Origin: Tabrizicola soli | GTDB lineage: Bacteria; Pseudomonadota; Alphaproteobacteria; Rhodobacterales; Rhodobacteraceae | Direction: 5' to 3' | DNA length: 64,000 bases | Assembly (NCBI RefSeq): GCF_015999335.1 | Contig: NZ_JAEACP010000004.1 | Location: 1-64,000, forward strand | In this document: positions 18,588 to 34,465 of the stretch, piece after piece | How positions within the stretch are numbered: position 1 is the first letter of the stretch | Layout: each line of letters starts with the position of its first letter | Translations under genes and position numbers: made by a program | Notes under the pieces: generated by a model | What the model saw: only the letters and a program-made list of their open reading frames with translations | Told to the model about the DNA's origin: nothing | Database searches by the model: none

Positions 18588-19628
18588 TCAGCCGTCGGAA
18601 GGGGCCGGACTGCGGCGCGAGGGCCAGAGCAGGCGCTGGTCGCCGCCCAACTTGGAATTGCCGAGCTTCTTGATGCGCCCGACCTGCCCGGCAAGATCGG
18701 GATCGGGCTGCAGCCGCAGATAGGCGGGCACCCAGGCAAGCTCGTGATCCCGGGGCTGTTTTCCGGGGCCACCGACGGATTGCGCCTTGCCGGTGATCGC
18801 CACGACCGGGGCCGGGTCGGCAAGTCCCGCGACGGTGAAGTCGACGATGCGCGGGATCGCCCGGTCGCAGGCGGTGAAAAGGCCCGGCCGGCGCTCTTTC
18901 AGCAAGGCGGCGGTCACCACCAGCGGGGCCACGGCATGAAGCTGGTAATGCAGCGCCAGCTTGCCGCGCCACATCTCGTTCGGCAGGCTGCCATCGGCAT
19001 CGGCGGTGCAGGCCACCAGCTCGGCCGATCTGGCGCCCCAGTCGATCAACACCGGATCTTCCAGGACAAGGCCGACACGCGTCACCGCCAGCCCGGCCCA
19101 GGCGCGCAGGTTGTTCCGCGAGGCGCGGGGCGGAGCCTCGGCGTCGAACCAGGCCATCGTCTGCCGCGCCCGGGCGCGCAGCCAGTCCTCGATCACCGGG
19201 TCGCGCGGCGTGCCGGGGACCTTGTCCAGCACGGCCGCATAGGCGAAGGCGATCCCGCCCACCCGCGACGGGGCCGAGAGGTTGGCGCCCTGCGTGGTCA
19301 GCTTGCCAAGCGCGCCGGCCTTGGCCCAGGCACGGATGCTGTCCATGACGCAGGCCGACGCCTTTTCCACCGCCTCGGGCTTGCTTTTCGGATCGTGCAG
19401 GATATCGGTCTGCCGCGCCAGGTCGGCGATGAAATCGTCGATCGGCTTCAGCGCGGCGGTCACCGCCTTGTCGCCCTCTTCGTCAAAGTCGCTGCGGTTC
19501 CTGCTGTCATCGGCATAGCGGCTGCCGAAACCCAGCGAGACGACGGGTTTACTGTCCGATGGACAGACCTCGGCGGCAAGCGGGCTGGCCAGCAGGCTTA
19601 GCCCGAGGGCAAGGGGGCGCAGGGTCAT
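18588..19628 (-). CDS. AlgL-like (PL5) alginate lyase homologue lacking catalytic His
   Basis: A 346-residue secreted protein with a signal peptide (MTLRPLALGLSLLASPLAAE). It resembles periplasmic alginate lyase AlgL, which clears stray polymer in Pseudomonas. Shared features include IRAWAKAGAL and SLPNEMWRGKLALHY. The AlgL active-site segment NNHSYW reads NNLRAW here (N172-N173-L174), so the catalytic His is Leu and the Tyr is Ala. A second Tyr of the YHNYAL segment is His. These comparisons use the Pseudomonas sequence as remembered. The protein may be inactive, act on another polymer, or serve as a structural part of the secretion complex. It is the last operon gene and overlaps the Sel1 gene by four bases. 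Confidence 0.8.
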   Translation of the reverse strand: MTLRPLALGLSLLASPLAAEVCPSDSKPVVSLGFGSRYADDSRNRSDFDEEGDKAVTAALKPIDDFIADLARQTDILHDPKSKPEAVEKASACVMDSIRAWAKAGALGKLTTQGANLSAPSRVGGIAFAYAAVLDKVPGTPRDPVIEDWLRARARQTMAWFDAEAPPRASRNNLRAWAGLAVTRVGLVLEDPVLIDWGARSAELVACTADADGSLPNEMWRGKLALHYQLHAVAPLVVTAALLKERRPGLFTACDRAIPRIVDFTVAGLADPAPVVAITGKAQSVGGPGKQPRDHELAWVPAYLRLQPDPDLAGQVGRIKKLGNSKLGGDQRLLWPSRRSPAPSDG

Positions 19629-22360
19629 TGTCCGACCTCCGTCGTCAGTTCCAGGGTCCGCAGCCGCTGGGCGGCATCCGTGTTGCCCAGATCGGCGGCC
19701 TTCTGCAACCAGGCCACCGCCTCTTCGCGCGAGGGGGTGACGCCGATGCCGAAGACCAGCGCGTCAGCATAATCGATCATCGCGGCCGGCTCACCCGCCT
19801 CGGCTGCGCGGCGCAGCCATTCGGTCGAATCGAGCACTTCGGCCGGGGTCGCGGCGGATTTGCGCAGGATCAGCGCATATTCGCGCATCGCGACCGCATT
19901 GCCGGATTCCGCCGCCGTCAGATAAAGCGCCGCCTCGTCGATGCTGCGGTAAGCGATGGCGCGGATCTCGGGCGTGGCATTGCGCAGGCGCCCGAGAGCC
20001 GCGGGCAGCTCCTCGGGCGCGCTGAAGCGGACCAGGTCCACGAACAACCCGGCCGAGATCCCGGGATCGTACTGGGGGGAACTGCGGTGCGAATAGATGT
20101 TGAGCAGCCGGTGGATCGCCACCCGGCTGCCGTCGCTGCGGGCGGCCTCGTAGAAGGCAAGGATGCGCGGTTCGTCGGCGTCGGTGCCGTAGCGGCTGAA
20201 GACATCCGCCAGGTCGGCCAGCGCCGCGCCCTTGCCCCGTGCCAGGTATTCGGCAATCCCGAGCCAGCGTTCCAGCAGCGCGCGGTCGCCGGAGCGGCCG
20301 ACGGCATCGGCCAGGCGCAGGGCCTCATCGAAGGTGCAGCCGGTGATCGCGGTGGCGCGGCGCTGGTAGTCGTCGAACACCGCCTTGTCCTTGAGCAGGG
20401 GCAGGGCCAGCAGCAGGGCGTCGAAATCGCCGCGGGAGTCGATCGTCTCGCCGTAGCGGTCATGGACGGCGGCGAGGTTCGGGAAGGTTTCGGGGTCGGC
20501 CAGGGGCAGCAGGGCCATGGCATCGCCGATGCCGCGTTCGGCCAGCGGCAGCAGCAGCTCCAGCGCCTCGGCCTGGGCGTCGGCGTTGATATACCCCTCA
20601 TCCAGCAGGGCTTCGGCCAGCTGGCCGCTGGCCGAGGTTTCGCCCTGACGCACGGCCTGGCGGAACAGGTCGAGCGCCGCTTCGCGCGCCGCCGGACTGC
20701 GGGCGGCCTTCAGCGCAAGGCTGGCGCGGGCGGTGGTCACGCCGGGGAAGCGGGTGGCGTAGTCGGTCCAGAAGGCCAGCGTCCCGGCCGGGGCACCGCG
20801 CTTCTCCAATAGATACATATATTGCGCGATGGCGGAGATACGGCCGTTCAGGGCCTGGGTCTGGACCTCGGCCTCGGCGATCGGGTCGGGCGTCGCGGCA
20901 AGCGCCGCGAGCTCTTCCGGCGTAAAGTCGACGGCAATGGTCGCGGTGCTGTCCGCAGCGCGGACCCAGTAGTCCGCCTCGGCCACCTGCGGCGCATCGG
21001 GCGCGCGGCAGATGAATGCGTTGGAGAGCTCCAGCAGGGGATCCACCTCGCCACCCGAGACGACGACCTGGATCAGCTGGTCCATGACCTTGTAGAAATC
21101 GGCCGGGGTCCGGGCGGCGCGGAAACGCATCGGGGCGGTACGTTCCATCGCGGCGTATTCGCCAAGGGCGATGGCGCGATCCAGAAGCTCTTCCGCCTCG
21201 GCCTCGCCGGCCCAGCGACCCTTCTGCTTCAACACCTCCTCGGCCATGGCGATCAGCGCCCAGGCAGGGGCCTTGGGCGAGGCAGCCAGATCGGACAGGG
21301 CCTCGATATAGCGCGGGGTCCATTGCGGATCGCGGCGGGATTGCGCCTGCAGGAAGAGGACATGGCTGGCCGCGCCGGGCGCCCAGTCGCTTGCGGCGGC
21401 GGCGGCATAGGTCGCGTCGGCAGCCTCCAGATCGCGCGGCACCAGCGCGCCATCGGCCTCGACCCGCGCCAGCGCGACCTGGGCATAGGGCAGCCCGGCA
21501 TCCGAAGCCGCCGTCAGATAGTGCAGGAGGACGTCGTTGTCCTTGGCAATGTCCTCGGCCCGCAGGTGCATCTCGGCCACCCGCCAGGCCGAGATCGCGT
21601 CGCCAAGATCGGCCGAGAAGCGGAACCAGCGCTCGGCCAGGATCGGGTCGCGGGTCACGATGTTGCCGTTCATGTATTCACGGGCGATCCGGTTCACCCG
21701 GTCGCAGATCAGCGGGTCCAGCTTGCCCAGAAGCGCGCCGAAGGCCATGGTGACGCCCAGTTCCGGCGGCACGTCCCAGCCCTCGATCGGCCCGCCCTGG
21801 TTCTCGCGCTCGACCAGATCGAGGATCGCATCGGCATTGCCGCCGAAGGCCGCGGTGAGAAGCAGCGCCTCGCCCCTCTCCATGTCCCTTTCGATGCCGA
21901 CGCCGCGCATCAGGTAGCCCGCAAGCAGATGCTGCGCCCGCGGCGTCTGGCTGAGGTCCATCGCCGCCAGCTTTTCCACCAGCCCCTCCTGCTGCAGTTC
22001 GGCCAGGTGTCCGGTGGCCAGAAGCAGCTCGATCCGGTCGATCAGCATGTTGGCGTCGGAATATTCCGGGTCCAGCGTGCGGAAGCCGGCCTGCACGGCG
22101 CTGGCCACCTCGAACCAGCGCCGCGAGTCCAGCTCGATCAGGCGGCGCAGGTCGCGCTTGATCAGCCCGGTATCGGTTTCCGGCGGGGCGGCGGGATCCG
22201 CACCCTCCCATTTCGCGACCAGAGCCTCGTCGCTGAGGTTCCGGTCGCAGATCGGGGCCGAATCCAGCACCGGCGGCTCGAACACCAGGTCCACGGTCGC
22301 GGCCCGCGCGGCGAGGGGCAGGGCAAGAACCATAAGGGTGGCAAGGGTGGTGCGGAGCAT
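19625..22360 (-). CDS. Large Sel1/TPR-repeat periplasmic protein, AlgK-like role
   Basis: A 911-residue protein with a Sec signal (MLRTTLATLMVLALPLAARAA) but no lipobox Cys. It is built of helical TPR/Sel1-like repeats, clearest near residues 130-260 (LLAGYLMRGVGIERDMERGEALLLTAA) and at the C-terminus (GEPAAMIDYADALVFGIGVTPSREEAVAWLQKAADLGNTDAA). In Pseudomonas the Sel1 lipoprotein AlgK (about 475 residues) scaffolds the periplasmic part of the alginate exporter. This protein is twice as long and not lipidated, so equivalence is inferred from fold and position. It overlaps algL-like by four bases. Confidence 0.75.
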   Translation of the reverse strand: MLRTTLATLMVLALPLAARAATVDLVFEPPVLDSAPICDRNLSDEALVAKWEGADPAAPPETDTGLIKRDLRRLIELDSRRWFEVASAVQAGFRTLDPEYSDANMLIDRIELLLATGHLAELQQEGLVEKLAAMDLSQTPRAQHLLAGYLMRGVGIERDMERGEALLLTAAFGGNADAILDLVERENQGGPIEGWDVPPELGVTMAFGALLGKLDPLICDRVNRIAREYMNGNIVTRDPILAERWFRFSADLGDAISAWRVAEMHLRAEDIAKDNDVLLHYLTAASDAGLPYAQVALARVEADGALVPRDLEAADATYAAAAASDWAPGAASHVLFLQAQSRRDPQWTPRYIEALSDLAASPKAPAWALIAMAEEVLKQKGRWAGEAEAEELLDRAIALGEYAAMERTAPMRFRAARTPADFYKVMDQLIQVVVSGGEVDPLLELSNAFICRAPDAPQVAEADYWVRAADSTATIAVDFTPEELAALAATPDPIAEAEVQTQALNGRISAIAQYMYLLEKRGAPAGTLAFWTDYATRFPGVTTARASLALKAARSPAAREAALDLFRQAVRQGETSASGQLAEALLDEGYINADAQAEALELLLPLAERGIGDAMALLPLADPETFPNLAAVHDRYGETIDSRGDFDALLLALPLLKDKAVFDDYQRRATAITGCTFDEALRLADAVGRSGDRALLERWLGIAEYLARGKGAALADLADVFSRYGTDADEPRILAFYEAARSDGSRVAIHRLLNIYSHRSSPQYDPGISAGLFVDLVRFSAPEELPAALGRLRNATPEIRAIAYRSIDEAALYLTAAESGNAVAMREYALILRKSAATPAEVLDSTEWLRRAAEAGEPAAMIDYADALVFGIGVTPSREEAVAWLQKAADLGNTDAAQRLRTLELTTEVGQ

Positions 22361-22384: not shown

Positions 22385-23014
22385 TCACTTCGCGAGCGCG
22401 TTCGGCGCGACCGTGGCGGTGTAGCTGCCGCCGGTGCCGGACAGCACGATGGCAACGCCCTCGCGCCGCTTCAGCGCCACGGCAGGGACGGTGGCCACCA
22501 CGGTCTCGCCGTCGCGCACTTCGAAATCCAGCGTCAGCGGCGCCTTCAGCGCCACCGCGCCGCCGCCGTTCGCCGCAATGCCTTCGATCGCCACGGTCTT
22601 GGCCTGCGGCACATAAAGGTCGGCCGAGGCGATGTCGGAGAGGTTGTAGAAGGTGACATCGGCCTGCGCCGGGTTGTTGGAGATCTTGTCCACCACCAGC
22701 GCCGAGGTGCCATCGGCCCCTACGACGAAGGAGTAGAAGGTCGCCGGTTCGATGGTCTCGGTCGTGGAAGTCTCGCCCGAGGTGATCTTCACCTCGGTCT
22801 CGCCGTCGATCACCACATAGGGGGTGACGCCACCGTCGACGCTGTCGAAACTGGCCGACTGGATCACCGCGACCGGGGTTCCTGCATCGATGACACGGAC
22901 GAAGCTGGCTTCGGGATTGGCGACGTCCTCGTAAAGGCCGCCGTCCTGGGCCAGGGTGGCGGTGGCGGCAGCGGCAAGAGCCACGAGCGACAGGGCGCCT
23001 TGGATGCGTTTCAT
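22385..23014 (-). CDS. algF: AlgF-like polysaccharide O-acetylation protein
   Basis: A 209-residue secreted protein with a signal peptide ending near ATLAQ. The mature start DGGLYEDVANPEASFVRVID matches the AlgF pattern of small beta-rich periplasmic proteins needed for alginate O-acetylation. The start at 23014 overlaps the algX-like stop by four bases (ATGA); an upstream ATG at 23041 would add nine residues and lie inside that gene. In the Pseudomonas model AlgF passes acetyl groups between AlgJ and AlgX. Confidence 0.8.
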   Translation of the reverse strand: MKRIQGALSLVALAAAATATLAQDGGLYEDVANPEASFVRVIDAGTPVAVIQSASFDSVDGGVTPYVVIDGETEVKITSGETSTTETIEPATFYSFVVGADGTSALVVDKISNNPAQADVTFYNLSDIASADLYVPQAKTVAIEGIAANGGGAVALKAPLTLDFEVRDGETVVATVPAVALKRREGVAIVLSGTGGSYTATVAPNALAK

Positions 23015-24378
23015 GAATCGTCTCCTTTCGGGGTTGGGCAAAGGGTGAGGGCCGAGGTCTCGCGCAGGGGCCGGTCGAAGGTGACGGCGACGCGGGTGAG
23101 ATCGGGCCTCCAGTAGGGTTCCAGCCGCAGGAAGAAGCGGCCGGTGGCGCGCAGGCGGTCGCCGCGCTCGATCCGGACGCTGCGGTTGATGCCGTCGGCG
23201 CTTTCCAGCGTGACGGTGGCCACGCGGGATCCCTCGCCGCCGAGGTCGAAGAGGAAGGCATCGGCGGGCTTCAGCTGGCCGGGCTCGAACCGGGCGGCCA
23301 GGGCGTCGGGGCCTTCGGGTTCGGCCCCGGTCTCGATATCGCAGGCGGGACCGGCGGCGGCGATCAGCTCGTCCATCGGGACCGGGCCGAATTGCGCAAG
23401 GCTGTTGTAGATCGGATTCTCCCAGACCAGGAAGGTCGGGCGGTCCTCGGCAAATTCGCGCGAGGTCAGGTAGGAGGTCATCGCGCCGAACTGGTTGCCG
23501 CCGGTGATCGCATAGTTGACCGTCTCGATCCCGGCATATTCCGACAGGAAGCCCGCGAAATTGTTGACGCTGCTGTCCGAGAACGAGGTGCCTACCAGCG
23601 CCAGGCTCGCCTCGGCCTCGCCGGTGCCGAAGATGTCCAGCGCGCCCTCCTCGGCGGGAGCGGACTCGCCCCCCCCGGCGTCGACGAAGATGTCCGAGGC
23701 ATCGTTCACCTCCTCGGCGGCGCGGGTGGTGATCCAGGTGGTCGCCTCGACGGGCGGGAGAGTGTCCTTGCAGAAGGTCTGCAACTCGCGCCGGAGGCCG
23801 GAGAAGGCGACCTCGACCGGGCCTTCCTGCGAGGTGAACGCGACCGGGGCGACATCGGCATAGGCGGGGTGATTGCGGATCATCTCGCCGATGGCCCGGG
23901 CTGCAAGACGCGCGCCGGCGGGCGTCCAGTGGAAGTCGGCCTGGAAGAAGACCTTCTCGTCCGGTCCGGCCCCCAGCATCGCGGTCATCAGGTCGGGCGC
24001 AGCGACGCCGGCCGCGGTCAGGCGGTCGATGACGTCGCGGTAATTGGCCTGCATCATCCCGGCGTCATAGCCATAGGCGGCAGCCTCGGGCGGCAGGTAG
24101 GCGGGCATCGCCTGGCCCTTGGTCGGCACGTTGACGAAGATGAGCGTGGTGCCCTGCTCGGCCAGGACGCGGGACAGATGGGCGAGTTGCCCCACGACGA
24201 TATCGTCCATCGGATGTTGGAGGCGCAGGTCGGACTGTACCCGGTAGAACACCCCGTCCTTGCCCTCGATGCTGGCCGTCGGGGCGTATTGGGTGCGCGA
24301 GCACTGGAACTGCGAGGGCTGGGCCAGGGCGGCACCCGGCAAGAGGATCGCGGAGAGGGCGAGGGCGGCACGCATCAT
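23011..24378 (-). CDS. algX: AlgX-like periplasmic polysaccharide O-acetyltransferase
   Basis: A 455-residue secreted SGNH-like protein. After a signal peptide (to about A19) comes an SGNH/AlgX catalytic domain with the DxH pair D148/H150 in QADFHWTPAGA and the nucleophile S265 in LVGTSFSDS. The C-terminal hundred residues are beta-rich, like the carbohydrate-binding module of AlgX. All three catalytic residues known in Pseudomonas AlgX are therefore present. The ATG at 24378 overlaps the preceding stop by four bases. It is expected to transfer acetyl groups to the nascent polymer in the periplasm. Confidence 0.85.
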   Translation of the reverse strand: MMRAALALSAILLPGAALAQPSQFQCSRTQYAPTASIEGKDGVFYRVQSDLRLQHPMDDIVVGQLAHLSRVLAEQGTTLIFVNVPTKGQAMPAYLPPEAAAYGYDAGMMQANYRDVIDRLTAAGVAAPDLMTAMLGAGPDEKVFFQADFHWTPAGARLAARAIGEMIRNHPAYADVAPVAFTSQEGPVEVAFSGLRRELQTFCKDTLPPVEATTWITTRAAEEVNDASDIFVDAGGGESAPAEEGALDIFGTGEAEASLALVGTSFSDSSVNNFAGFLSEYAGIETVNYAITGGNQFGAMTSYLTSREFAEDRPTFLVWENPIYNSLAQFGPVPMDELIAAAGPACDIETGAEPEGPDALAARFEPGQLKPADAFLFDLGGEGSRVATVTLESADGINRSVRIERGDRLRATGRFFLRLEPYWRPDLTRVAVTFDRPLRETSALTLCPTPKGDDS

Positions 24379-25163
24379 CGGGTGGCTCCTTGCAGGGTCT
24401 CGGGGCGCAGGCGCGGGCGGAGGCTGAGAGAGACGGTGGTCCAATCCTCCGCCGCCGGCGCGGGCGGGGCGGGCGGGAATTCCGGCACGCCGCCGGGCAG
24501 CTGGTTCAGCAGCGTGCGCGCGATGGACTGGACGCCGGGGTCGGGGCTGGACAGCGCCAGCTCCAGCGGCCGGCGGGCGCCCTCGGGATCGGGCGGCAGG
24601 CCGGGGGCGCCGGTGAAATGGCTTTGCGCCAGGCGGATCCCGGCCTTGAAATCCCCGGCCTCGGCCGCGGCCAACAGTAGCTCGCGCGCGCGTGGCACGT
24701 CCTGCTCGAAGGGCTTGCCCCGGAGAAGAAGTTCCGCCAGCCCGGCGGCAGCCACGGGATCGGTGCGGGCCTCGCGGTCCAGCACCTCGCGGATGTTGCG
24801 CAGGCGGGCGGGGCCGAACTCGGCCTGACCGCCGCGCAGGATGGCGATGAGGCGCGGGATGGCGAATTCGCGGTCGGCATAGACGGCGATCGAATAATAA
24901 TGCGCCGCGTCGTCCAGGTATTCGACGAGGCCCCGTTCCTCCAGCCTGCGGGCATAGCGGGCAGCGGCAAGCCCCTCGCCCGCGTCGGCCAGGACCTGCA
25001 ACTGGCGGTCGGAGAGTTCCCTCCCCGCCATCATCGACCGGCGCAGGTCCTTCAGCCGGGGGCTGGCGGCGATGGCCGGGGGCAGCACCACATCGGCCGC
25101 CACCGGCGTTGCCGCCGCCAGCATGGCCAACAGAAGGCCGGTATGCAGCATAGGGTTACGCAC
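24375..25163 (-). CDS. Small Sel1-like secreted protein of the EPS operon
   Basis: A 262-residue protein with a signal peptide (LLLAMLAAATPVAADVV) and a helical repeat region resembling Sel1/TPR units (GLAAARYARRLEERGLVEYLDDAAHYY; AAGLAELLLRGKPFEQDVPRARELL). It ends in a proline-rich stretch PPAPPAP. The best start is GTG at 25163, with AAGGAGG six bases before it, overlapping the algJ stop; an ATG at 25151 lacks such a site. It may be a second AlgK-like scaffold part, placed between AlgJ and AlgX. No lipobox is present. Confidence 0.7.
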   Translation of the reverse strand: MRNPMLHTGLLLAMLAAATPVAADVVLPPAIAASPRLKDLRRSMMAGRELSDRQLQVLADAGEGLAAARYARRLEERGLVEYLDDAAHYYSIAVYADREFAIPRLIAILRGGQAEFGPARLRNIREVLDREARTDPVAAAGLAELLLRGKPFEQDVPRARELLLAAAEAGDFKAGIRLAQSHFTGAPGLPPDPEGARRPLELALSSPDPGVQSIARTLLNQLPGGVPEFPPAPPAPAAEDWTTVSLSLRPRLRPETLQGATR

Positions 25164-26238
25164 CGCTGTCCTCCTTGTCCCCGGCCTCCCAGACCCCGGG
25201 GTCGGTCAGATAGCGGACCGGGAATTCCCAGATCACCAGCTCGGGCGGCGCCGCGCGGAAATCGGCAGAGGCGAGGTAGTCCAGCATCGGCCGGGCAGGC
25301 CCCTGCCCTTCCGCGGCCAGGTTCAGCACGTCCCGCCCCAGCGCAAGCTTCAGCGACTCGGCGAAGCTCCAGGTCGGGTTGGCCGAGTATGAGGTGCCGA
25401 TCAGCAGCGTCGCCCCGGCCTGCGCCCCGGCGAAGATGTCCAGGGTCCCGGCATCGCCCTGCGGATCCGCGGTGAAGGGAACGGCGGCCTCGGGGGCCAG
25501 GCCGACCATCGGGGCCAACTCGTCGGTGGTGACGAAGGAAACGAGATCGCCGGTAAAGGCCTCGGGCCCGGCGCTGCGGACCCTGAAGCGCGCGTCCCCG
25601 GCCTGGACCAGGCCCGAGCCGGCAAGCGCCTGCGCCACGGCCCGCGCGCCTTCGGGCGTCCAGTGGGTATCGGTGCGGAAGAAGGCAAGGTCGCGCCACG
25701 CCTCGGCCCGCAACGCGGCGCGGGCGTCGAGGACCGGCACGTCGCGGGCCTGAAGACCCGCCAGGAATTCGCCGTACAGCGAGGTGATGCCCTCGGCCGC
25801 CTTCGGATCGCCATGGGCGACATGGACGTCCAGCTTGCCCGGCACCGGCACCACGACAAGCGCGGCCCCCGCCCGGGCCAGCCGGTCGCGTACCCCGGCG
25901 ATGCGGTCAAGCTGGCCGTCAAGCGCGCCGGTCAGCGGCCGGACCTCCTCGGCGGTGTAAAGCCAGCCATCCGAGCCGGTGACAACGCCCTTGCGCCCCT
26001 CGCCCATGGTCACGTAGCGCAGCGCGCCCATCACCCCGATCGCCGGGTCGCGGTGCGGCAGCGACCGGCGATAGACCTCGTCCATCCGGGCGGTCAGTGC
26101 GCCGCGCAGCGCGGTCGCGTCCAGCGGCACCTCGTCCGGGCCGGGGAAACGGGCATATTCCAGGTTGAACACGGCCGCATAGCCGAAGAAGGCCACCGGC
26201 AGGACGTAACGCGCGGAACGCAGGACAAGCTGCATCAT
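25156..26238 (-). CDS. algJ: AlgJ-like membrane-anchored O-acetylation protein
   Basis: A 360-residue protein with one N-terminal hydrophobic anchor (about residues 10-24) and a periplasmic SGNH-like domain. The catalytic motif DTH is at D190-H192 (RTDTHWTPEGA) and the serine S283 in LIGTSYS. This matches AlgJ, the acetyl esterase/transfer intermediate of alginate acetylation, and distinguishes it from the AlgX paralogue downstream, which has a cleaved signal and C-terminal module. It starts eight bases after algI. Confidence 0.85.
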   Translation of the reverse strand: MMQLVLRSARYVLPVAFFGYAAVFNLEYARFPGPDEVPLDATALRGALTARMDEVYRRSLPHRDPAIGVMGALRYVTMGEGRKGVVTGSDGWLYTAEEVRPLTGALDGQLDRIAGVRDRLARAGAALVVVPVPGKLDVHVAHGDPKAAEGITSLYGEFLAGLQARDVPVLDARAALRAEAWRDLAFFRTDTHWTPEGARAVAQALAGSGLVQAGDARFRVRSAGPEAFTGDLVSFVTTDELAPMVGLAPEAAVPFTADPQGDAGTLDIFAGAQAGATLLIGTSYSANPTWSFAESLKLALGRDVLNLAAEGQGPARPMLDYLASADFRAAPPELVIWEFPVRYLTDPGVWEAGDKEDSGA

Positions 26239-26245: not shown

Positions 26246-27676
26246 TTAGAACTGGAAGTAGAGGAAGGGGGAGAAGCTCTGTTCGGCCAGACGCATGACC
26301 GAAAGCGCGAAGATGGCCGAGGTCACCAGCACCGGCACCAGCGTGTCGGTCGCCGACAATGCGCCGCCGGGGCCGGAGGGCACATAGTAGCGCCGGACCA
26401 CGATCTCGCGCGCCATGGGCTCGATGGCGCAGAGGACGATGGCGAAGGCCATGATGACCAGGCTCTCGCGGGTGATCTGCAGCGCGACCTCGACCGGCAG
26501 CGACAGGCCGTTCAGGCCCAGCATCCCGGCGTAGAACCCGACCGCCTGGGTCATGTCCGGCGCGCGGAAGACGACCCAGCCCAGAAGCACGACCAGCAGC
26601 GTCAGCGCGACCCGCGACGCGGTGCGGGGGCGCATCGACCAGCCCAGCCAGCGTTCCGCGGCCAGCCAGCCGCCGTGCCAGACACCCCAGACCACGAAGG
26701 TCCAGTTCGCGCCGTGCCAGAGGCCGCCCAGCACCATGACCGTCATCAGGTTGACATAGGTCCGTCCGCCGCTGATCCGGTTGCCGCCCAGCGGGATATA
26801 CAGGTAGTCGCGCAGCCAGACCGACAGGCTGATGTGCCAGCGCCGCCAGAACTCGGTGATCGAGGCCGAGACATAGGGCGTGTCGAAGTTCTCGCGGAAC
26901 TTGAAGCCCATCATCAGGCCAAGCCCCATGGCCATGTCGCTGTAGCCCGAGAAGTCGAAGTAGAGCTGCAGCATGTAGGCCACCCCTCCGGCCCAGGCGA
27001 GCGGGGCCGAGGGATCGGGCGTGGCGAAGGCCAGGTCGGCCAGGGGCGCCAGCGTGTCGGCGATCAGCACCTTCTTGCCCAGGCCGATAGCGAACCAGGC
27101 CATGCCGTCCGCGAATTTCTGCGGCGTATGGCTGCGGTGCTCGAACTGGTGGGCAAGGTCCTTGAAGCGCAGGATCGGCCCGGCCACCAGCTGCGGAAAC
27201 AGCGCGATGAAGGCGGCGAAGTCGAAGAAGTTGCGCGTGGGCTTCGCATCCTGGCGCAGCACGTCCACCAGATAGCTGATGCAGTGGAAGACGTAGAACG
27301 ACACCCCGATCGGCAGGATCAGGCGCCAGTGGATGTCCAGGCCCTCGGCCGTGGTGCCGAAAAGGGCGGCGAAACTGTCGATGAAGAAGTTGAGATACTT
27401 GAACACCCCCAGCACCGACAGGCAGCCCGCCACGCCGATGCCGCACCAGACCCGCGCCCTGCGGGTGCCGAGGTTGGCCGCGATCCGGTGGCCGATGCCG
27501 TAGGTCCAGAGCGTCGTCAGGAACAGCAGGAGCAGGAAGTCGAAGCGCCACCAGCCGTAGAACAGGTAGGACCCCGCCAGGATCAGCGCCGAGCGGAAGC
27601 GGAAGGGCGTCAGGTAGTAGAGCGCCAGGAAGGTCGGCAGGAACAGGAACAGGAAGATTTCCGAGGAAAAGACCAT
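26246..27676 (-). CDS. algI: AlgI-like MBOAT acetyl-group exporter
   Basis: A 476-residue polytopic MBOAT protein. The conserved histidines are in RRWHISLSVWLRDY (H281) and GGLWHGANWTFVVWG (H321), the pattern shown to matter in AlgI. The N-terminus (MVFSSEIFLFLFLPTFLALYYL) and about ten or more membrane segments fit the family. AlgI moves acetyl groups from a cytoplasmic donor across the inner membrane for AlgJ, AlgX and AlgF, all encoded directly downstream. It starts four bases after the AlgG-like stop. Confidence 0.92.
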   Translation of the reverse strand: MVFSSEIFLFLFLPTFLALYYLTPFRFRSALILAGSYLFYGWWRFDFLLLLFLTTLWTYGIGHRIAANLGTRRARVWCGIGVAGCLSVLGVFKYLNFFIDSFAALFGTTAEGLDIHWRLILPIGVSFYVFHCISYLVDVLRQDAKPTRNFFDFAAFIALFPQLVAGPILRFKDLAHQFEHRSHTPQKFADGMAWFAIGLGKKVLIADTLAPLADLAFATPDPSAPLAWAGGVAYMLQLYFDFSGYSDMAMGLGLMMGFKFRENFDTPYVSASITEFWRRWHISLSVWLRDYLYIPLGGNRISGGRTYVNLMTVMVLGGLWHGANWTFVVWGVWHGGWLAAERWLGWSMRPRTASRVALTLLVVLLGWVVFRAPDMTQAVGFYAGMLGLNGLSLPVEVALQITRESLVIMAFAIVLCAIEPMAREIVVRRYYVPSGPGGALSATDTLVPVLVTSAIFALSVMRLAEQSFSPFLYFQF

Positions 27677-27680
27677 CAGG

Positions 27681-29105
27681 CTACTCCGTCTCGCAGGGAA
27701 CGGCCGCCCCGGGCGTCGCGCCCAGGGCGGCGGGGATCACCAGGGCTTCGCCGGTGCTCAGCCAGGGGCCGAGCCAGGGCGCGAAGTCCCCGGCGAACTG
27801 GCGCGGGGTCTGGTCGGACAGGTCGTTGCCCGAAAGGGTGACCTCGCCCAGACCGGCGGCGCGCAGGCCCTCGCGGTTCCGGGCCAGGAGGTTGTCGGCC
27901 AGAAGCACCGGCCCCTTGCCCGACTGGTCCCGGACCTCGACCCCGGCCGAGCCGTTGGACAGGATCACGTTGTCCTCGACCCGCGCGGCGCCGGTGTGGG
28001 AAAGGCGCAGCCCGGCTGTCCGGTTGGCGGCGACGATGTTGCCCCGGACCGTCACGCAATCCGCATGCCCGATGGAAATGCCAGCCCCGGCATTTGCCAG
28101 CACGACATTGCCGCGCAGATCCAGGTTCCTGACATTGCCCTCGACCTGGATGCCGTTGCCGCCCGCGCCCTGGATGGTGTTCGCGGCGACCCTCACCCCG
28201 TCAAGCTTGCCCGAGAGGCGCAGGCCCGCCCCTTTTCCGCCAGCGCCGATCCGGTTGCCGGCGATCACAAGGTTCCGCCCGTCGCGGACGACGACCGCGC
28301 CCGCCCCGCCCAGCCGGTTCCCGGCGAGGACCAGCCCGTCCGCCCCCTGGAAACCCAGGCTGACGACGCGCTCGAAGCCGCTGCCGGTCACCATCGGGGA
28401 AGAGGGCGATTGCAGGAGGCCCGTGGTCAGGACCGCGACGCCGCGAAAGGCCGTCGGGCCTTGGAAACCCAGGTCGGCGAAGCTGGCGCCCCGGGCGTGA
28501 AGGCTGCCCCGGCCGGTGACCAGAAGGAACGGCCGGAAGGCCTTGACGACCGGGTTCTCGCCGCCATCGCCGCGCAGGCTGGCCCCGTCGATCCGGACCG
28601 CGCCGAAGCTGAGCAGGAAGGCCCCGCCGGCGGTGTCCATCTCCAGCTCCTCCCCCTCGGCCAGGACCAGCGCCGCGCCGGGCCAGACGACGAGGGGACG
28701 CCGCAGATGCCAGACCTCGCCCTCGCGGCCGACCAGCCCGCTTGCGGCCTCCAGATCGGCCAGCCGCGCGGTGCCGGACATGAGGTAGATCACATCCGTC
28801 CGCCCGTCCTGCGCCAGTTGCAGCGCAAGATGCCCGTTGCCGCCCGAGAGGATGGAAAGCTGGGTCAGCGCCACCTGGACCTCTCCCTCGCGCACATCCG
28901 GCGCGACCTCGGCCAGTGCCGGGGGGTCGGGCGGCGCGACGGACGGCAGGCCGCCCGCCAGTTCGCCCGCCAGTGCCGCCAGCCTGCCGGTGTCGGCCTT
29001 GGCGGCAAGCTCGGCGGTAATGGCCTCGTGCAGCCGGGCGTCCGGCTCGGCGCCCAGGGGGGCGGCGAGGAGGCAGGCGGCCAGCACAGGCGGCGCAAGT
29101 CGCAT
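27681..29105 (-). CDS. AlgG-like beta-helix protein lacking the DPHD catalytic motif
   Basis: A 474-residue secreted right-handed beta-helix protein with a signal peptide to about A19. It shares with mannuronan C5-epimerase AlgG the RPFLLVTGRGSLHARGASFADLGF region and repeated helix turns (about residues 235-430, e.g. GLRLSGKLDGVRVAANTIQG). AlgG epimerises mannuronate to guluronate with an Asp-Pro-His-Asp motif. No DPHD occurs anywhere here; the corresponding strand around residues 265-284 reads AGAVVVRDGRNLVIAGN. It may therefore be a polymer-guarding scaffold or act on another residue. The start overlaps the algA stop by one base. Confidence 0.78.
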   Translation of the reverse strand: MRLAPPVLAACLLAAPLGAEPDARLHEAITAELAAKADTGRLAALAGELAGGLPSVAPPDPPALAEVAPDVREGEVQVALTQLSILSGGNGHLALQLAQDGRTDVIYLMSGTARLADLEAASGLVGREGEVWHLRRPLVVWPGAALVLAEGEELEMDTAGGAFLLSFGAVRIDGASLRGDGGENPVVKAFRPFLLVTGRGSLHARGASFADLGFQGPTAFRGVAVLTTGLLQSPSSPMVTGSGFERVVSLGFQGADGLVLAGNRLGGAGAVVVRDGRNLVIAGNRIGAGGKGAGLRLSGKLDGVRVAANTIQGAGGNGIQVEGNVRNLDLRGNVVLANAGAGISIGHADCVTVRGNIVAANRTAGLRLSHTGAARVEDNVILSNGSAGVEVRDQSGKGPVLLADNLLARNREGLRAAGLGEVTLSGNDLSDQTPRQFAGDFAPWLGPWLSTGEALVIPAALGATPGAAVPCETE

Positions 29106-30556
29106 CAGAGAACCTCCGGCAGAACCGGGAGGCCGGTCCGGTGACGCCGGGCGGTCGCGGCGATCTTCGGCGGCTGGGTCTCTGCCGCGCTGCGGAACTG
29201 CAGATGCATCAGCTTCAGCTCGCGCTCGGCCGTATTGGTCAGGGGCAGCGCATGGTCGGCGTCGATCACGATGGTCTGGCCCCGGCGGAGCGCCACCTCG
29301 GCCCCGTCGATCTTGCAGCGCCCCTCGCCCGCCATCACGGTCAGGAGGCTGGGCCCCTGCCCGGTGCCGTTGACCTGCAGGCTTGCGCTGCGGTGCACCG
29401 TCATGATCCGCATGTCGTGGCTGGCATCCGAGGCCAGCGTCTGGATCCGGCCCCAGGGCATCTCGCGCGTGGTGTGGCTGGAAACCTCGCGCCGCTTCTG
29501 CGCCTTCAGTTTCTCGACCACCTGCTTGACGTCCTGGGCATAGGCGCGCTGGGTGACCAGCACGGCATCGGGCGTGTCGATGACCACGGTGTCCTCCATC
29601 CCGATCACCGCGACGAGGCGGGTCTCGCTCTGGATCAGCGAGTTGCGGGTGTTCACTGCCATCACGTCGCCATGCAGCACGTTGCCGTCGCGGTCCTGGT
29701 CCGAGATCTGGTAGACCGCGTTCCAGGCGCCCACGTCGTCCCATTGCACGCCATGCAGCGGCGCCAGGGCGATCTTCGGCGTGCGCTCGAAGACCTGGCG
29801 CTCGGTCGGCTCGTTCGCGGCGCGGCGGAAGGCGGCCTCGTTCAGGACGATCCCGAGCGTCCGCATCTCGGCCCCGTCGACGGCGGCGGTCACCGCGGAA
29901 TGGGTGGTCGGATCCAGACGGCGGAACTCCTCGATCAGGGTGTCGGCCCGCATCAGGCTGATGCCCGAGGCCCAGTAGACGCCCCCGGCCTCGATCAGGC
30001 TTCGGGCGTGGTCGTAACCGGGCTTCTCGACGAAGCGCTCGACGCGGTGCAGCCCGGCGTAATCCTGGTAGGCCCCGCCGTCGGTGATGTAGCCATAGCC
30101 GGTCTCGGGATAGGTCGGGATCACGCCGAAGCTGACGATCCGCCCGTCCTGCGCCGCCGGAAGCATCGCGGCGATGATCCGGTTGATGTCGCCCTTGATC
30201 ATGTGGTCCGAGGGCAGGACCAGGATCACCGCCCCGGGATTCTCGCGGCGGGCGCAGATCGCGGCGGCAAGGACGGCGGGGCCGGTGTTGCGGCCGACCG
30301 GCTCGCCGATGACGCGGCCCTGCAGCTGAAGCTCGTCCAGCTGGCGGTGGACCAGCGCGGCCTGACCGGCGTTGGTGACGACGAGAGGCGGCGCGAATGC
30401 CTCGGAGCGGTGGCGTTGCAGGGTGGCCTGGAAATAGGTGAGACTGCCCTTTCCCAGCGTCGGCTGGAACTGCTTGGGCTGCTCGACCCGGCTCATCGGC
30501 CACAGGCGCGAGCCCATGCCGCCGCACAGAACCACGGGAACAATGCAATGTGTCAT
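29105..30556 (-). CDS. Mannose-1-phosphate guanylyltransferase, PMI domain degenerate (AlgA-like)
   Basis: A 483-residue protein of the AlgA/ManC type. The N-terminal nucleotidyltransferase has VVLCGGMGSRLWPMSR, the FVEKPGYDHA segment and VIVLPSDHM-like DHM (LVLPSDHMI), so GDP-mannose formation is well supported. The C-terminal cupin-like part should carry the type II phosphomannose isomerase motif with Gln-His-His..Glu-His zinc ligands. Here the region at residues 392-412 reads SLQVNGTGQGPSLLTVMAG, with no such ligands. Isomerase activity is therefore doubtful, and mannose 6-phosphate may come from another enzyme. It supplies GDP-mannose for AlgD. Confidence 0.87.
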   Translation of the reverse strand: MTHCIVPVVLCGGMGSRLWPMSRVEQPKQFQPTLGKGSLTYFQATLQRHRSEAFAPPLVVTNAGQAALVHRQLDELQLQGRVIGEPVGRNTGPAVLAAAICARRENPGAVILVLPSDHMIKGDINRIIAAMLPAAQDGRIVSFGVIPTYPETGYGYITDGGAYQDYAGLHRVERFVEKPGYDHARSLIEAGGVYWASGISLMRADTLIEEFRRLDPTTHSAVTAAVDGAEMRTLGIVLNEAAFRRAANEPTERQVFERTPKIALAPLHGVQWDDVGAWNAVYQISDQDRDGNVLHGDVMAVNTRNSLIQSETRLVAVIGMEDTVVIDTPDAVLVTQRAYAQDVKQVVEKLKAQKRREVSSHTTREMPWGRIQTLASDASHDMRIMTVHRSASLQVNGTGQGPSLLTVMAGEGRCKIDGAEVALRRGQTIVIDADHALPLTNTAERELKLMHLQFRSAAETQPPKIAATARRHRTGLPVLPEVL

Positions 30557-31641
30557 GGTTGATCGGCCTCTGCATCAGGGATTGAACGGTGGATCACAGC
30601 CGCCACGGGCTGCAGGACGCCGGGAAGCGGCCGGCGCAGGGTGACCTCGGCCAGCTGGCCCAGAAGGTCGTCGGCCAGGGGTTCGGTCGGGATCAGGCGG
30701 AAGGGAACCGGCTCTCCGGGCGCGGCGGTGCCCAGGCCGTCGGGGGCCAGCCGGGCCGTGACCTCGCGGCCCCCGGCGAAGCTCAGCCCGATGCTTCCGG
30801 CCTGGGCCAGGTCCAGAATCCGGTCCGGCGGCACCGATCCGGTCACGACCACCCCGGCGTCCGGGGCCGAGATGCGCAGGACCGGATCGCCGGCAAAGAC
30901 GGTCGAGCCGGCTTCGACGCCCAGCGCCTGAATCCGGCAGTCGCAGGGCATGGTGACGGAAAGCGCCTGCCCGGTGTTCGAGCGGATCGCGAAGGCGACC
31001 TCGCCCTGCTTTGCCTCGGGGTTCAGAAAGTCGATCTGGCCGGTCGCGGTGGCCGCCAGGGTGCGGCCGTCCAGCCCGGCGACGGCGGGGGTCGGGAGCG
31101 TCACGGTAAAGACGCGCTGGACGACCTTGACGGTGACCAGCCCGGCCAGCCCCGCCGCAAGGACCAGCAGCGCCGCCGTCCCGCCAAGACCGCGCAGCCA
31201 GCGCCGGCGGGCCTGCGGCTGCCCGGCCTTCGGCCTGGCTCCGGCCGGAGGACCGATCGACAGCACATCGCCCAGCGTCACCAGGTCGCCCGCGATATGG
31301 GCGTTCATCAGATGCCGCAGCTGCGGCAGATGATCGCCGAGCGGATCCAGGAACTCCAGCATGGCGGTGCCCCGTGCGGCGTCCAGCTCCTGCATCCGCA
31401 CCTCGATCGAGAGGGCGACGACGAAGCCCTGGAACCGGAACACCACCAATGCAAGCCGCTCGCTCCCGGCCGATTGCGGGTCGATCAGCCCGCTGATCCC
31501 GGCACGCACCAGCGAGATGCCGCGCCCCATGTATTGCCGCCCGGCGATCTCGACATGGAAGGGCATGTCCAGCATCGGATGGTCGGCCGGTCCGGTCAGC
31601 GCCATCGCGGCGGACTTGAGGGAGGGTCTGGCTTGGTCCAA
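30553..31641 (-). CDS. alg44: Alg44-like polymerisation/co-polymerase protein
   Basis: A 362-residue inner-membrane protein laid out like Alg44: a cytoplasmic PilZ-like domain (about 20-105), one membrane helix (about 152-172) and a periplasmic HlyD-like part. In Pseudomonas Alg44 binds c-di-GMP through RxxxR and D/NxSxxG and switches on synthase Alg8. Here no RxxxR precedes the LDMPFHVEI strand, and the second motif reads SLVRAG, so dimeric c-di-GMP binding looks lost. Polymer synthesis may be controlled another way. It overlaps algA by four bases. Confidence 0.82.
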   Translation of the reverse strand: MDQARPSLKSAAMALTGPADHPMLDMPFHVEIAGRQYMGRGISLVRAGISGLIDPQSAGSERLALVVFRFQGFVVALSIEVRMQELDAARGTAMLEFLDPLGDHLPQLRHLMNAHIAGDLVTLGDVLSIGPPAGARPKAGQPQARRRWLRGLGGTAALLVLAAGLAGLVTVKVVQRVFTVTLPTPAVAGLDGRTLAATATGQIDFLNPEAKQGEVAFAIRSNTGQALSVTMPCDCRIQALGVEAGSTVFAGDPVLRISAPDAGVVVTGSVPPDRILDLAQAGSIGLSFAGGREVTARLAPDGLGTAAPGEPVPFRLIPTEPLADDLLGQLAEVTLRRPLPGVLQPVAAVIHRSIPDAEADQP

Positions 31642-31665
31642 GGGTCGGTCCTTTCGCGGCAGGTT

Positions 31666-33165
31666 TCAGACAAGCCCCGACAGCAGCATGATCCCGAAGG
31701 TCAGCCAGCCGAGCGCGAGGGCGTGAACGCAGGTGGAGCCATAGCCGCGCAGCCGGGCGGCAAGGGGCAGGCGGGCGGCGGCGGGGCCGGACTGGCGGGT
31801 CCAGCGCTGCCGGTCGAGGCGGAAGAGGACGTAGCTTTTCACCGCCGCGCCGACGATCTGGCCGAAGTAGAGCAGTATCGGATAGGTGATCGGGAAGCCC
31901 CGGCCCCGGATGCTGGCCAGGACCCAGCAGAAGACATAGCGGGTGGCCATGACCCAGGCGATATAGGCCGGGATCACCAGGGGCTCGACAAAGGCCGCCG
32001 CCAGGATGACCGAGATCGGCCCGGCCAGCGTGGTCCAGATCCCAATCTTCTGGTCAAGGATCGACCACCAGGTGAAAAGGCCGATCTGCGACGGCCGCAG
32101 AGCCAGGGCTCGTCCATTGGTGCGCAGCATGTTGCCGAACCAGCGGATCATCAGGGTGACCGCGCTGTCGACGAAACCGGGCTTCGGCTGGGTCTCCATC
32201 GACAGCGAGGTGACGTCCGGCAGATACAGCATCTTGTAGCCGCGCTGCAGAAGCCAGAACCAGGTCGATTTGTCGTCCCCGGTCAGGAAATCGACCCGGC
32301 CCAGCCGCCAGTGGTCGATATGGTCGTGCTGCACCAGACGGATGAACTCATGCTGGGTGGCCAGGTCGGCGCGGAAGACCGACATGCGCCCGGTCAGGGT
32401 CAGGACCCGGCCCGACAGGCCCATCGAACTCATCATCATCTGGCGCTGGGTGAAGCGCAGGGCGAACCAGTCGGCGAAGAGGCCCGGCTCGCGGATCTCG
32501 ACCGCCTCGTCGGTGGTCAGCGCCCCGACCTCGGGATCGGTGAAGAAGGGCGTGGTGGCGGCGATGATGTCCTGCGGCACGCAGCTGTCGCCGTCGACCA
32601 GCAGCAGGATGTCCCGGCGCGACGGCGCCTGCCGGGCGATCAGCCGCAAGGACCGGGCGAGCGCGTCGCGCTTGCCGGTGCCGGGGATCTGGTCCACCAC
32701 CAGCTCGACCCCGTCCATCGGCACGTCCATCAGCGCGTGGATGCGCTTGATCAGGCGCAGATCGGCGGTGTCGACGACCGAGGCGACGATCGTCGCCCCG
32801 CCCGGCGCCGCCGCAGCAGCCCGGAAGAGCGAGCGGTAGACGCGCTGGGTGGTGTCGGTGTCGATCTTGTAGCTGGTGACCAGGAAATAGGCGTGGCCGC
32901 GCACCGGCTCGGCCGCCTCGGCGGCGAGGGCGCGGGCCTTCAGCCGCGGATAGGCGACGGCCTGATACCAGACCGCGCGCAAATAGTTGATCGCGGCCCA
33001 GCCATAGCGCCAGATCCCGACCGTGCCGACCACGATCAGCCCGTCCGAGACATGGCCCAGCGCCCCCGGCGGGATCGCCAGCACCAGAAGCCCCAGCACC
33101 GCGAGGTAGATCAGATGGCCAAGGATCGCGCGCAGGCGGGTCATCTTACCAGCAGATCCCTTCAT
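31666..33165 (-). CDS. alg8: Alg8-like family 2 glycosyltransferase (polymer synthase)
   Basis: A 499-residue membrane GT2 enzyme like Alg8, which polymerises mannuronate from GDP-mannuronic acid. Nucleotide-binding and catalytic motifs are seen in order: LLLVDGDSC (DxD-like), TGRMSVFRA, TGDDKSTWFWLL (TxDD acid motif) and MIRWFGNML (RW). Hydrophobic segments flank the catalytic loop at both ends. The ATG at 33165 has GGAAGG five bases upstream and overlaps algD; an ATG at 33144 begins one base after the algD stop. Confidence 0.9.
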   Translation of the reverse strand: MKGSAGKMTRLRAILGHLIYLAVLGLLVLAIPPGALGHVSDGLIVVGTVGIWRYGWAAINYLRAVWYQAVAYPRLKARALAAEAAEPVRGHAYFLVTSYKIDTDTTQRVYRSLFRAAAAAPGGATIVASVVDTADLRLIKRIHALMDVPMDGVELVVDQIPGTGKRDALARSLRLIARQAPSRRDILLLVDGDSCVPQDIIAATTPFFTDPEVGALTTDEAVEIREPGLFADWFALRFTQRQMMMSSMGLSGRVLTLTGRMSVFRADLATQHEFIRLVQHDHIDHWRLGRVDFLTGDDKSTWFWLLQRGYKMLYLPDVTSLSMETQPKPGFVDSAVTLMIRWFGNMLRTNGRALALRPSQIGLFTWWSILDQKIGIWTTLAGPISVILAAAFVEPLVIPAYIAWVMATRYVFCWVLASIRGRGFPITYPILLYFGQIVGAAVKSYVLFRLDRQRWTRQSGPAAARLPLAARLRGYGSTCVHALALGWLTFGIMLLSGLV

Positions 33166-34465
33166 AGCTGCCTTCCGACTTCTGGCCGGGCTTGATCCGG
33201 GCCAGATCGATCATCGGGCGGTTGCCCAGGGCCGCCTGCAGCGGCGGGATCGCCTCGTCGTAGCGGTTTCCGACCAGGACCAGATCCGAATCCGCGATCA
33301 ACTCGTCGATCGAGGGCACCAGCCGGCTGCCCAGCGCGATGTCATGCTCCAGCCCCCGGCCTGCGGCGGTGGAATCGTTGGCGAAGGCCTCTCGCACGAA
33401 GGGGTCGTAGACGGAAAGCTGGACCCCGCGCCCGATCAGCCGCGCCGCCAGCTCGGCCAGCGGGCTTTCCCGGATATCATCGGTCCCCGGCTTGAAGCTG
33501 ATCCCCACCATGCCCACCCTGGTCTTGCCCGAGGCCTCGATCATCGCCTCGGCCCGGGCGATCTGCGCCGCGTTGCCCACCAGCACCGCATCCAAGAGCG
33601 GTGAGGCGACCTGCCGACGTGCCGCGAAGGACCGCAGCGCCCGCACGTCCTTGGGCAGGCATGACCCGCCGAAGGCAAAGCCGGGGCGCAGGAAGTCCGG
33701 GCTCATCGAGACCTTGCGGTCCGAGCAGAGGATCGCCATCACGCGCTGGCCATCCAACCCGGCCGCCTTGGCAATGTTCCCGATCTCGTTGGCAAAGCCG
33801 ACCTTGACCGCCCGCCAGGCGTTCGAGGTGTATTTCACCATCTCGGCCGTGCCGACATCGACCAGGTTGATCTCGCAATCGAGGTCCTGGTTCAGCTGGG
33901 TCAAGAGCGCCCCGGTCGCGGCATCCAGCGCGCCGAAGACGATCAGGCCAGGGTCCTGATAATCGCGGATCGCAGTGCTCTCGCGCAGGAACTCGGGATA
34001 GTATCCCACTCCGAAATCCCGCCCGGCCTTCAGGCCCGAGGCCTGTTCCAGCAGCGGGATGCAGGTCCCGGCCATGGTTCCCGGCACGATGGTCGAGCGC
34101 AGGATGACCGAATGGAACCCGCCATGCCCCGGCAGCGCCCGGCCGATCGTCTCGCACACGGCCCGCACATGCCCGAGCCCGACCGAACCGTCGGGGTCGC
34201 TGGGCGTGCCCACGCAGACGAACGAGGCATCGCTATCCTGCACCGCCGCGGCGGCATCGGTGGTGGCGCGCAGCCGGCCCGAGGCGACGACCCGGGCGAT
34301 CAGCTCGGGCAGGCCCTTCTCGACGATGGGCGAGCGCCCGGCATTGATCGCGGCGACCTTGGCCGGGTCCACGTCCACCGCGACGACCTCATGCCCGTCG
34401 CGGGCCAGACAGGCTGCCGACACCACGCCGACGTAGCCGATACCAAAGACTGCAAGCCTAGCCAT
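33146..34465 (-). CDS. algD: GDP-mannose 6-dehydrogenase (AlgD)
   Basis: A 439-residue UDP-glucose/GDP-mannose dehydrogenase family enzyme that oxidises GDP-mannose to GDP-mannuronic acid, the committed precursor step. The NAD motif is VFGIGYVGVVSAACLA and the catalytic Cys is C269 in GGSCLPKDVRAL, the same sequence as in Pseudomonas AlgD. Together with Alg8 downstream this supports mannuronate as the sugar rather than glucuronate. The ATG at 34465 is preceded by GGAAGG. It is the first gene of the operon, with a repeat-rich upstream region at 34605-34668. Confidence 0.92.
   Translation of the reverse strand: MARLAVFGIGYVGVVSAACLARDGHEVVAVDVDPAKVAAINAGRSPIVEKGLPELIARVVASGRLRATTDAAAAVQDSDASFVCVGTPSDPDGSVGLGHVRAVCETIGRALPGHGGFHSVILRSTIVPGTMAGTCIPLLEQASGLKAGRDFGVGYYPEFLRESTAIRDYQDPGLIVFGALDAATGALLTQLNQDLDCEINLVDVGTAEMVKYTSNAWRAVKVGFANEIGNIAKAAGLDGQRVMAILCSDRKVSMSPDFLRPGFAFGGSCLPKDVRALRSFAARRQVASPLLDAVLVGNAAQIARAEAMIEASGKTRVGMVGISFKPGTDDIRESPLAELAARLIGRGVQLSVYDPFVREAFANDSTAAGRGLEHDIALGSRLVPSIDELIADSDLVLVGNRYDEAIPPLQAALGNRPMIDLARIKPGQKSEGSYEGICW

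Follow-up and report, generated by a model that had tools for sequence, protein, structure and literature searches.

We describe a twelve-gene operon of Tabrizicola soli that is a divergent sister lineage of the alginate family and not a classical alginate operon. The DNA analysed, hereafter the window, comprises 64,000 nucleotides (positions 1-64,000 of the forward strand of contig NZ_JAEACP010000004.1, assembly GCF_015999335.1) and forms the start of a 226,855-base contig in a genome of 4.68 Mb. The operon occupies positions 18588-34465 on the minus strand, from the start of algD at 34465 to the end of algL at 18588, in the order algD, alg8, alg44, algA, algG, algI, algJ, sel1a, algX, algF, sel1b, algL. 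Judging from its residues and gene content, it probably encodes an O-acetylated poly-mannuronate system that works without cyclic di-GMP (c-di-GMP) gating at Alg44, without epimerisation and without export through AlgE. A preliminary description of the window had placed a complete alginate-type operon of twelve overlapping genes here. The twelve genes, all on the minus strand, and their exact span were borne out; the overlap holds for six of the eleven junctions, and at most 60 bases separate the genes at each of the remaining five, depending on the start codons chosen.

The operon can be read as two halves. The genes for the precursor, the polymerase and acetylation are kept, and an acetylated poly-mannuronate is therefore predicted. 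In the other half, four sites (the c-di-GMP site of Alg44, the AlgG site, the phosphomannose isomerase (PMI) site of AlgA and the AlgL histidine) are altered across a clade of relatives, and five canonical control loci keep all four. From this altered half we predict that the product lacks guluronate, that Alg44 imposes no c-di-GMP gate, that AlgL has little or no lyase activity, and that mannose-6-phosphate has another source and the polymer another exit. We file the operon as a sister lineage because several of the defining features of the canonical operon that we looked for are missing. Neither the label 'complete' nor an implied classical alginate product is supported: algE has no match, algK is not recognisable, and Alg44, AlgG, AlgL and the PMI domain of AlgA are without residues that define their functions, the c-di-GMP, epimerase, lyase and PMI sites being altered in the clade. 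The family assignments made earlier (AlgD, Alg8, Alg44, AlgA, AlgG, AlgI, AlgJ, AlgX, AlgF, AlgL and two Sel1 proteins) are supported by tool matches, and the catalytic residues of AlgD, Alg8, AlgI, AlgJ and AlgX are all present. The genes, with the adjacent regulator, are as follows:

34747..35409, minus strand: LuxR/NarL-type regulator, upstream of algD in the same direction; GerE domain at 55 bits, response-regulator-like N-terminus
33146..34465, minus strand: algD, GDP-mannose 6-dehydrogenase; best Protein Data Bank (PDB) match 1mfz, GGSCLPKD kept
31666..33165, minus strand: alg8, GT2 polymannuronate synthase; GT2 Pfam matches, DGD, TGDD and RWFGN kept
30553..31605, minus strand: alg44, co-polymerase; predicted PilZ fold, one long helix, HlyD-like domain
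29105..30556, minus strand: algA, GDP-mannose pyrophosphorylase (GMP) with a degenerate PMI cupin domain; TIGR01479 match, GMP motif kept
27681..29105, minus strand: algG homologue, right-handed beta-helix without DPHD; family profile matches AlgG 4ozz
26246..27676, minus strand: algI, MBOAT O-acetyl-transfer membrane protein; PF03062 at 105.6 bits, WHG kept
25156..26238, minus strand: algJ, SGNH O-acetyltransferase-like; ALGX domain at 221 bits, Asp, His and Ser kept
24375..25151, minus strand: sel1a, small Sel1-repeat protein; Sel1 at 28 bits, below the cut-off
23011..24378, minus strand: algX, SGNH O-acetyltransferase; ALGX at 164 bits, Asp, His and Ser kept
22385..23014, minus strand: algF, acetylation complex protein; PF11182 at 41.9 bits, cut-off 34.4
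19625..22360, minus strand: sel1b, Sel1/TPR protein of 911 amino acids; Sel1 match, proposed functional stand-in for AlgK
18588..19628, minus strand: algL homologue (PL5), NNH changed to NNLR; PF05426 at 86 bits, Arg and Tyr kept

The operon is not peculiar to the T. soli strain. The survey of Rhodobacteraceae that had been suggested gave Alg8 matches at E 1e-40 or better in 41 of 295 genomes; 21 of these, the genome of the window included, are close (at least 54% identity), and 20 reach only 31-39% identity. One other species of the T. soli genus had no Alg8 match. From the at least 570 stretches of named genomes that encode a relative, a wider scan supplied 80 loci. Three arrangements were distinguished: type A is that of T. 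soli, type B is without algI, algJ and algF, and type C lacks algD and algA. The Alg8 tree has 113 rows; its 89 clade rows, from Rhodobacterales and Rhizobiales, stand on one side of a branch with an SH-like approximate likelihood ratio test (SH-aLRT) value of 100, and loci of Rhizobiaceae, Devosiaceae and Stappiaceae group with the T. soli locus. Type B appears through three changes, among type A in Rhodobacterales and as a separate case in Martelella, which points to two or more losses of the acetylation genes. Within the clade, type A appears to be the ancestral form in this tree, which was built by a quick method, carries a root for drawing only and often leaves the forks within the clade open.

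Residues were counted in alignment columns, since simple motif patterns proved too strict for AlgJ and AlgX; chance pattern matches outside the sites also occurred, for AlgG in L042 and L106 (one locus) and for Alg44 in L049. The counts for Alg44, AlgG and AlgA exclude short rows and loci whose Alg8 ends are identical. The counts for AlgX, AlgJ and AlgL include duplicate loci; their three type-C rows represent two distinct loci, and they place in type B a locus (L135) that the Alg8 tree labels C.

Of the four altered sites, that of Alg44 bears on control. The T. soli protein has an HlyD-type Pfam match (23 bits, cut-off 22) and no PilZ Pfam match, the PilZ domain being assigned by predicted fold. 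An AlphaFold2 model (mean pLDDT 85.6) matched the crystal structures of Alg44 PilZ domains in Foldseek, with a TM-score of 0.84 by target length for 4xrn, and the remaining part matched membrane-fusion proteins. All five c-di-GMP columns of RxxxR and DxSxxG are kept in 5/5 canonical controls, and the two arginines and the aspartate in 17, 17 and 15 of 18 rows of other controls. Among 86 clade rows, the first arginine is kept in 2, the second in 1 and the aspartate in none. According to the passages of a review on the P. aeruginosa protein (PMC8461298), R21 and residue 44 are needed for c-di-GMP binding and R17 for the dimeric ligand, and Alg44 mutants unable to bind c-di-GMP make no alginate. 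The same passages give residue 44 as E44, where our canonical controls have Asp; R17, R21 and D44 were placed on control row L196, from which we infer the agreement with P. aeruginosa numbering. The clade Alg44 is thus predicted to keep the PilZ fold without most of the c-di-GMP residues, and c-di-GMP control at Alg44 would be lost. PilZ domains that do not bind c-di-GMP exist, for example PilZ itself. They share with the clade domain a PilZ fold without RxxxR; the clade domain, however, sits in an alginate co-polymerase, where binding is otherwise required.

The second altered protein is AlgG. Alone it reaches 29 bits, and with a family profile 131 bits (E 4.6e-37), to the solved AlgG 4ozz; the NCBIfam AlgG model gives 31 bits against a cut-off of 700. 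The column of the DPHD histidine, the probable proton abstractor according to parts of PMC4444821, is a gap in 83/83 clade rows. This histidine is present in 5/5 canonical controls and 6/10 other controls, and the Arg of SREV is kept in 7/83 clade rows. The title of a 2003 study by Gimmestad reportedly states that P. fluorescens needs the AlgG protein, not AlgG activity, and a structural AlgG is therefore plausible. The AlgG homologue would then not epimerise, and the product would therefore have little or no guluronate. Two control loci with gamma-like alginate clusters (L197 and L202) have the order algD, algA, alg8, alg44 ... I, J, F, X, L, G.

In AlgL, alignment to PL5 structures followed by column counts identified the altered site. 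The His of NNH is Leu in 40/40 clade rows and is followed by Arg (NNH to NLR), an invariant arginine gained beside the lost histidine. These counts include duplicates and six type-A rows, two further short rows being left out; the His is present in 15/17 controls. The Arg and Tyr that P. aeruginosa AlgL needs, according to parts of PMC8829089, are kept in 40/40. On this pattern of residues, a weak or absent lyase activity is predicted.

A rival explanation is an ordinary acetylated alginate with guluronate. Under that explanation AlgG would epimerise through a relocated site and AlgL would clear the periplasm by Arg/Tyr chemistry. The AlgG fold is kept under purifying selection, the AlgL Arg and Tyr are retained with the new invariant Arg, and, in the parts of PMC8829089 available, H202A of P. 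aeruginosa AlgL was tolerated in vivo. A relocated site would nevertheless have to lie in a protein whose DPHD His column is a gap and whose SREV Arg is mostly gone, and none of the residue types Asp, Glu, His, Arg, Lys and Tyr has an invariant position across the 19 aligned AlgG rows. We consider this explanation unlikely.

A shift of Alg8 specificity towards a different uronan or heteropolymer, to which the changes in AlgG, AlgL and Alg44 would be a response, is favoured by the joint change of both enzymes acting on C5 of mannuronate. It could also draw on a polysaccharide lyase (PF14099) just upstream of algD in type-B loci (e.g. L042:16973-17923 and L115:7340-8605); the PDB entry closest to this protein is a glucuronan lyase, matched only weakly (E 0.11). 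The precursor and polymerase genes, however, make such a shift quite improbable. AlgD is clearly a GDP-mannose dehydrogenase by its matches, with 428 bits to GDP-mannose dehydrogenase 1mfz versus 238 bits to the best UDP-glucose dehydrogenase and GGSCLPKD in 94/94 clade loci with an AlgD (duplicates included); the pattern for its EGICW end matched in 42/94 loci only and is not used as evidence. Alg8 keeps the motifs DGD, TGDD and RWFGN of canonical rows in the rows compared, the Alg8 proteins of type-A loci are 58-84% identical to that of the window, and the Alg8 clade sits beside canonical Alg8 in the tree. A closer relation of AlgD and Alg8 to UDP-glucose enzymes or other synthases, named earlier as a ground for rejecting the assignment, did not appear; the AlgD scores and the Alg8 tree rule out AlgD as a UDP-glucose dehydrogenase and both proteins as cellulose- or hyaluronan-type.

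The PF14099 gene is present at the locus in 10/11 type-B genomes and divergent in 16/17 loci of its family. The T. soli genome has none at E 1e-5, and one weak match lies near the locus of a type-A genome (G171).

The reading as an acetylated poly-mannuronate system is consistent with the rest of the kept half. AlgA matches TIGR01479 at 379.1 bits (cut-off 372.95) with its GMP motif kept, while the PMI ligands QxHxH..E are replaced: in 81 clade rows Gln and Glu are found in none and the first and second His in 3 each, whereas the first His is present in 5/5 canonical controls. By these residues, AlgA retains the GMP half and has lost the PMI ligands, and is not bifunctional as in the canonical system. 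A separate strong PF01050 isomerase match lies elsewhere in 11/17 clade genomes, T. soli included. The O-acetylation proteins AlgI, AlgJ and AlgX have their active residues present, and AlgF is assigned by family match. The T. soli genome has no MBOAT match other than AlgI. The WHG of AlgI is kept in 53/54 rows, the exception being truncated where its locus ends; in AlgJ, Ser and His are kept in 50/50 and Asp in 49/50, and the Asp, His and Ser of AlgX are intact in 48/48 type-A rows. In type B, AlgX keeps Asp in 35/36 rows, His in 0/36 (Arg in 31) and Ser in 2/36 (Glu or Asp in 28), as would be expected if the acetyl donor path was gone with algI, algJ and algF. Loss of these three genes and loss of the AlgX His and Ser go together. 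The acetylation genes had been described as grouped, and so they are here, but X, I, J and F are also adjacent in two of the five canonical controls (L193 and L198).

The AlgE family (PF13372) had no match in the whole T. soli genome up to E 10, and in a search of 38 genomes at E 0.01 it was absent from 8/8 type-A genomes (T. soli included; two partial type-A genomes left out) and from 10/11 type-B genomes, the remaining one having an AlgE away from the alg locus. AlgE is present in 5/5 canonical control clusters, about 4 kb from the alg8 start. No AlgK is recognisable in the locus; the sel1b profile matches AlgK at 26 bits, behind many stronger Sel1 proteins. The sel1a gene stands at the same place in most complete relatives, and sel1b is present in types A, B and C. 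A scaffold role of the Sel1 proteins and a non-AlgE export route may account for this pattern. No conserved porin was found among the five recurring flank families scanned with Pfam, the downstream type-A flanks being short. The sole family constantly placed beside many type-A clusters turned out to be the LuxR-type gene (41 loci). Other families among the 14 listed are ABC ATPases (24 loci, scattered), RTX/M10 proteins (12) and ParA-like proteins (11); the rest are smaller or shadow-frame sets. That the polymer stays in the periplasm and is not secreted would explain both the missing porin and a dispensable lyase, and it agrees with the unmatched AlgE in 8/8 type-A genomes and the scanned flank families. 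Those downstream flanks are short, however, and a porin of another family may lie elsewhere in the genome, so that we give this explanation little credence.

Selection was compared in nine locus pairs, using open frames that were not trimmed to their starts. The dN/dS value stayed under 0.5 in all genes compared (algG, 0.06-0.47; algL, 0.05-0.30 in three pairs), and AlgG is among the fastest-changing proteins of the operon. By these values, the operon proteins look maintained under purifying selection and not like remnants. Although sites are altered in four proteins, a decaying, non-functional locus is thus scarcely credible, given the same changes clade-wide, the conserved order and dN/dS below 0.5.

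Putting these results together, we propose the following scheme. AlgA, through its pyrophosphorylase half only, and AlgD would make GDP-mannuronate, with mannose-6-phosphate supplied by a separate isomerase elsewhere in the genome. Alg8 with Alg44 would polymerise it to poly-beta-D-mannuronate, and AlgI, AlgJ, AlgX and AlgF would O-acetylate the polymer in the periplasm. The AlgG homologue would serve the periplasmic complex as a structural component that does not epimerise, and the AlgL homologue would be at most a weak lyase. The Sel1 proteins, sel1b above all, would replace AlgK as scaffold, and export of the polymer would follow a route other than AlgE. Synthesis would not be gated by c-di-GMP at Alg44, and the adjacent LuxR-type regulator would be the likeliest control point.

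Several points weigh against this scheme. First, the AlgG of L197 and L202 is also without DPHD, while their AlgL NNH and Alg44 motif are kept; loss of the AlgG site alone therefore also occurs outside the clade. Epimerisation by AlgG through another site is conceivable, as is a later action of secreted epimerases. Second, type-A AlgL was seen in six loci only, most of the fetched type-A loci ending before algL, and all three algL pairs in the dN/dS comparison are type B. P. aeruginosa AlgL H202A was inactive in vitro and wild-type-like in vivo, which the authors of PMC8829089 take as residual activity; because of this tolerance we do not call the clade AlgL dead, and by analogy it may still cut. 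Third, the Ser of the Alg44 DxSxxG is kept in 86/86 clade rows and the Gly in 9/86, and c-di-GMP could act through another protein. Fourth, 6/17 clade genomes are without a strong second PF01050 match, and a type I phosphomannose isomerase, considered as a substitute for the lost PMI half of AlgA, was absent from all 17 clade genomes searched. Fifth, a porin unrelated to AlgE, which was not searched for, could do the work of AlgE, and the LuxR-type gene was not found in 8/49 type-A rows, some with cut flanks. Finally, we know of no chemistry for the product of any clade member.

In 41/49 type-A tree rows, the LuxR-type gene lies upstream of algD and is read in the same direction; its flank family has no type-B member among the compared loci. 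Response-regulator models match the protein far below their cut-offs. Genes for an RND efflux pump and membrane fusion, at 35651-39829 of the window, lie upstream of this regulator and share its strand.

Further arrangements were observed. In the Alg8 tree, loci of Microvirga, Chthonobacter and Rhizobium nepotum (L142-L145) branch next to the clade; they keep D.HD in AlgG and the RxxxR..DxSxxG motif of Alg44 and already have a sel1b-like protein. Four minimal loci (L199, L200, L201 and L208) combine a more distant dehydrogenase and Alg8 with an Alg44 whose c-di-GMP motif is intact, a PL5 lyase that retains NNH and a sel1b-like protein; modification genes were not found at the locus. Within the clade, one genome (G183) carries a type-B and a type-C cluster (L040 and L048), the latter without algD and algA and with an alg8 that reads with one in-frame TGA. 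A second Alg8-like synthase group occurs in the family at 30-39% identity (L053-L066), and 12 of its 14 loci have a nearby dehydrogenase 38-42% identical to AlgD. At E 1e-60, 14 plasmid records of PLSDB also carry an Alg8 relative, with an identity of at least 57% in 8 of them. The gene order on Loktanella salsilacus plas2 is that of type A; its record names AlgF and an alginate lyase and gives the other genes generic names, so that such a system is easily overlooked.

Compared with the canonical Pseudomonas/Azotobacter operon (controls L194-L196, order algD-8-44-K-E-G-X-L-I-J-F-A), the operon shares clustered homologues of AlgD, Alg8, Alg44, AlgG, AlgX, AlgL, AlgI, AlgJ, AlgF and AlgA and the acetylation residues. 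It differs in its order, in that AlgK and AlgE were not found, in the added two Sel1 proteins and, usually, LuxR-type regulator, and in the c-di-GMP, epimerase, PMI and AlgL-His sites altered in the clade. A gene order unlike that of Pseudomonas, as first described, was thus confirmed against Pseudomonas-like control loci. The suggestion of a distinct lineage or product likewise holds for the lineage, by the Alg8 tree and gene order, and for the product as a prediction. Parts of a 2020 survey by Bundalovic-Torma (PMC7112194) report atypical alginate operons without algKE or some modification genes. These resemble the present operon in outer-membrane gene loss, rearrangement and divergent alg44 and algX; no site analysis appears in those parts, and the deep-sea examples of the survey may or may not belong to the clade. 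The alphaproteobacterial cellulose operons without bcsC mentioned there are likewise synthase-dependent and without a porin, but make another polymer. One table row of PMC7892980 labels a gene of Yangia (Rhodobacteraceae) as O-acetylation/alginate biosynthesis. Among the top-ranked open-access PMC papers listed in the literature searches, none describes such an alphaproteobacterial operon by its title and abstract opening, subscription journals and preprints being outside this scope. The system is thus a variant of the alginate family that we did not find described, while atypical operons without algKE are already known from the parts of PMC7112194 cited above.

It is conceivable, and we suggest it tentatively, that the clade represents a widespread machine for guluronate-free mannuronan, acetylated in type A and plain in type B, that runs ungated, with AlgG and AlgL non-catalytic or re-purposed and with Sel1-based, non-AlgE export. 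Pure mannuronan has been obtained from bacteria with mutant AlgG, according to parts of PMC4444821, and native mannuronan makers would therefore be useful. The joint disappearance of AlgI, AlgJ, AlgF and the AlgX His and Ser offers a clean natural experiment on acetylation. Alginate is a standard example of direct c-di-GMP action on a polysaccharide synthase, and a natural Alg44 with the fold but without most of the ligand site would show how such a synthase runs ungated.

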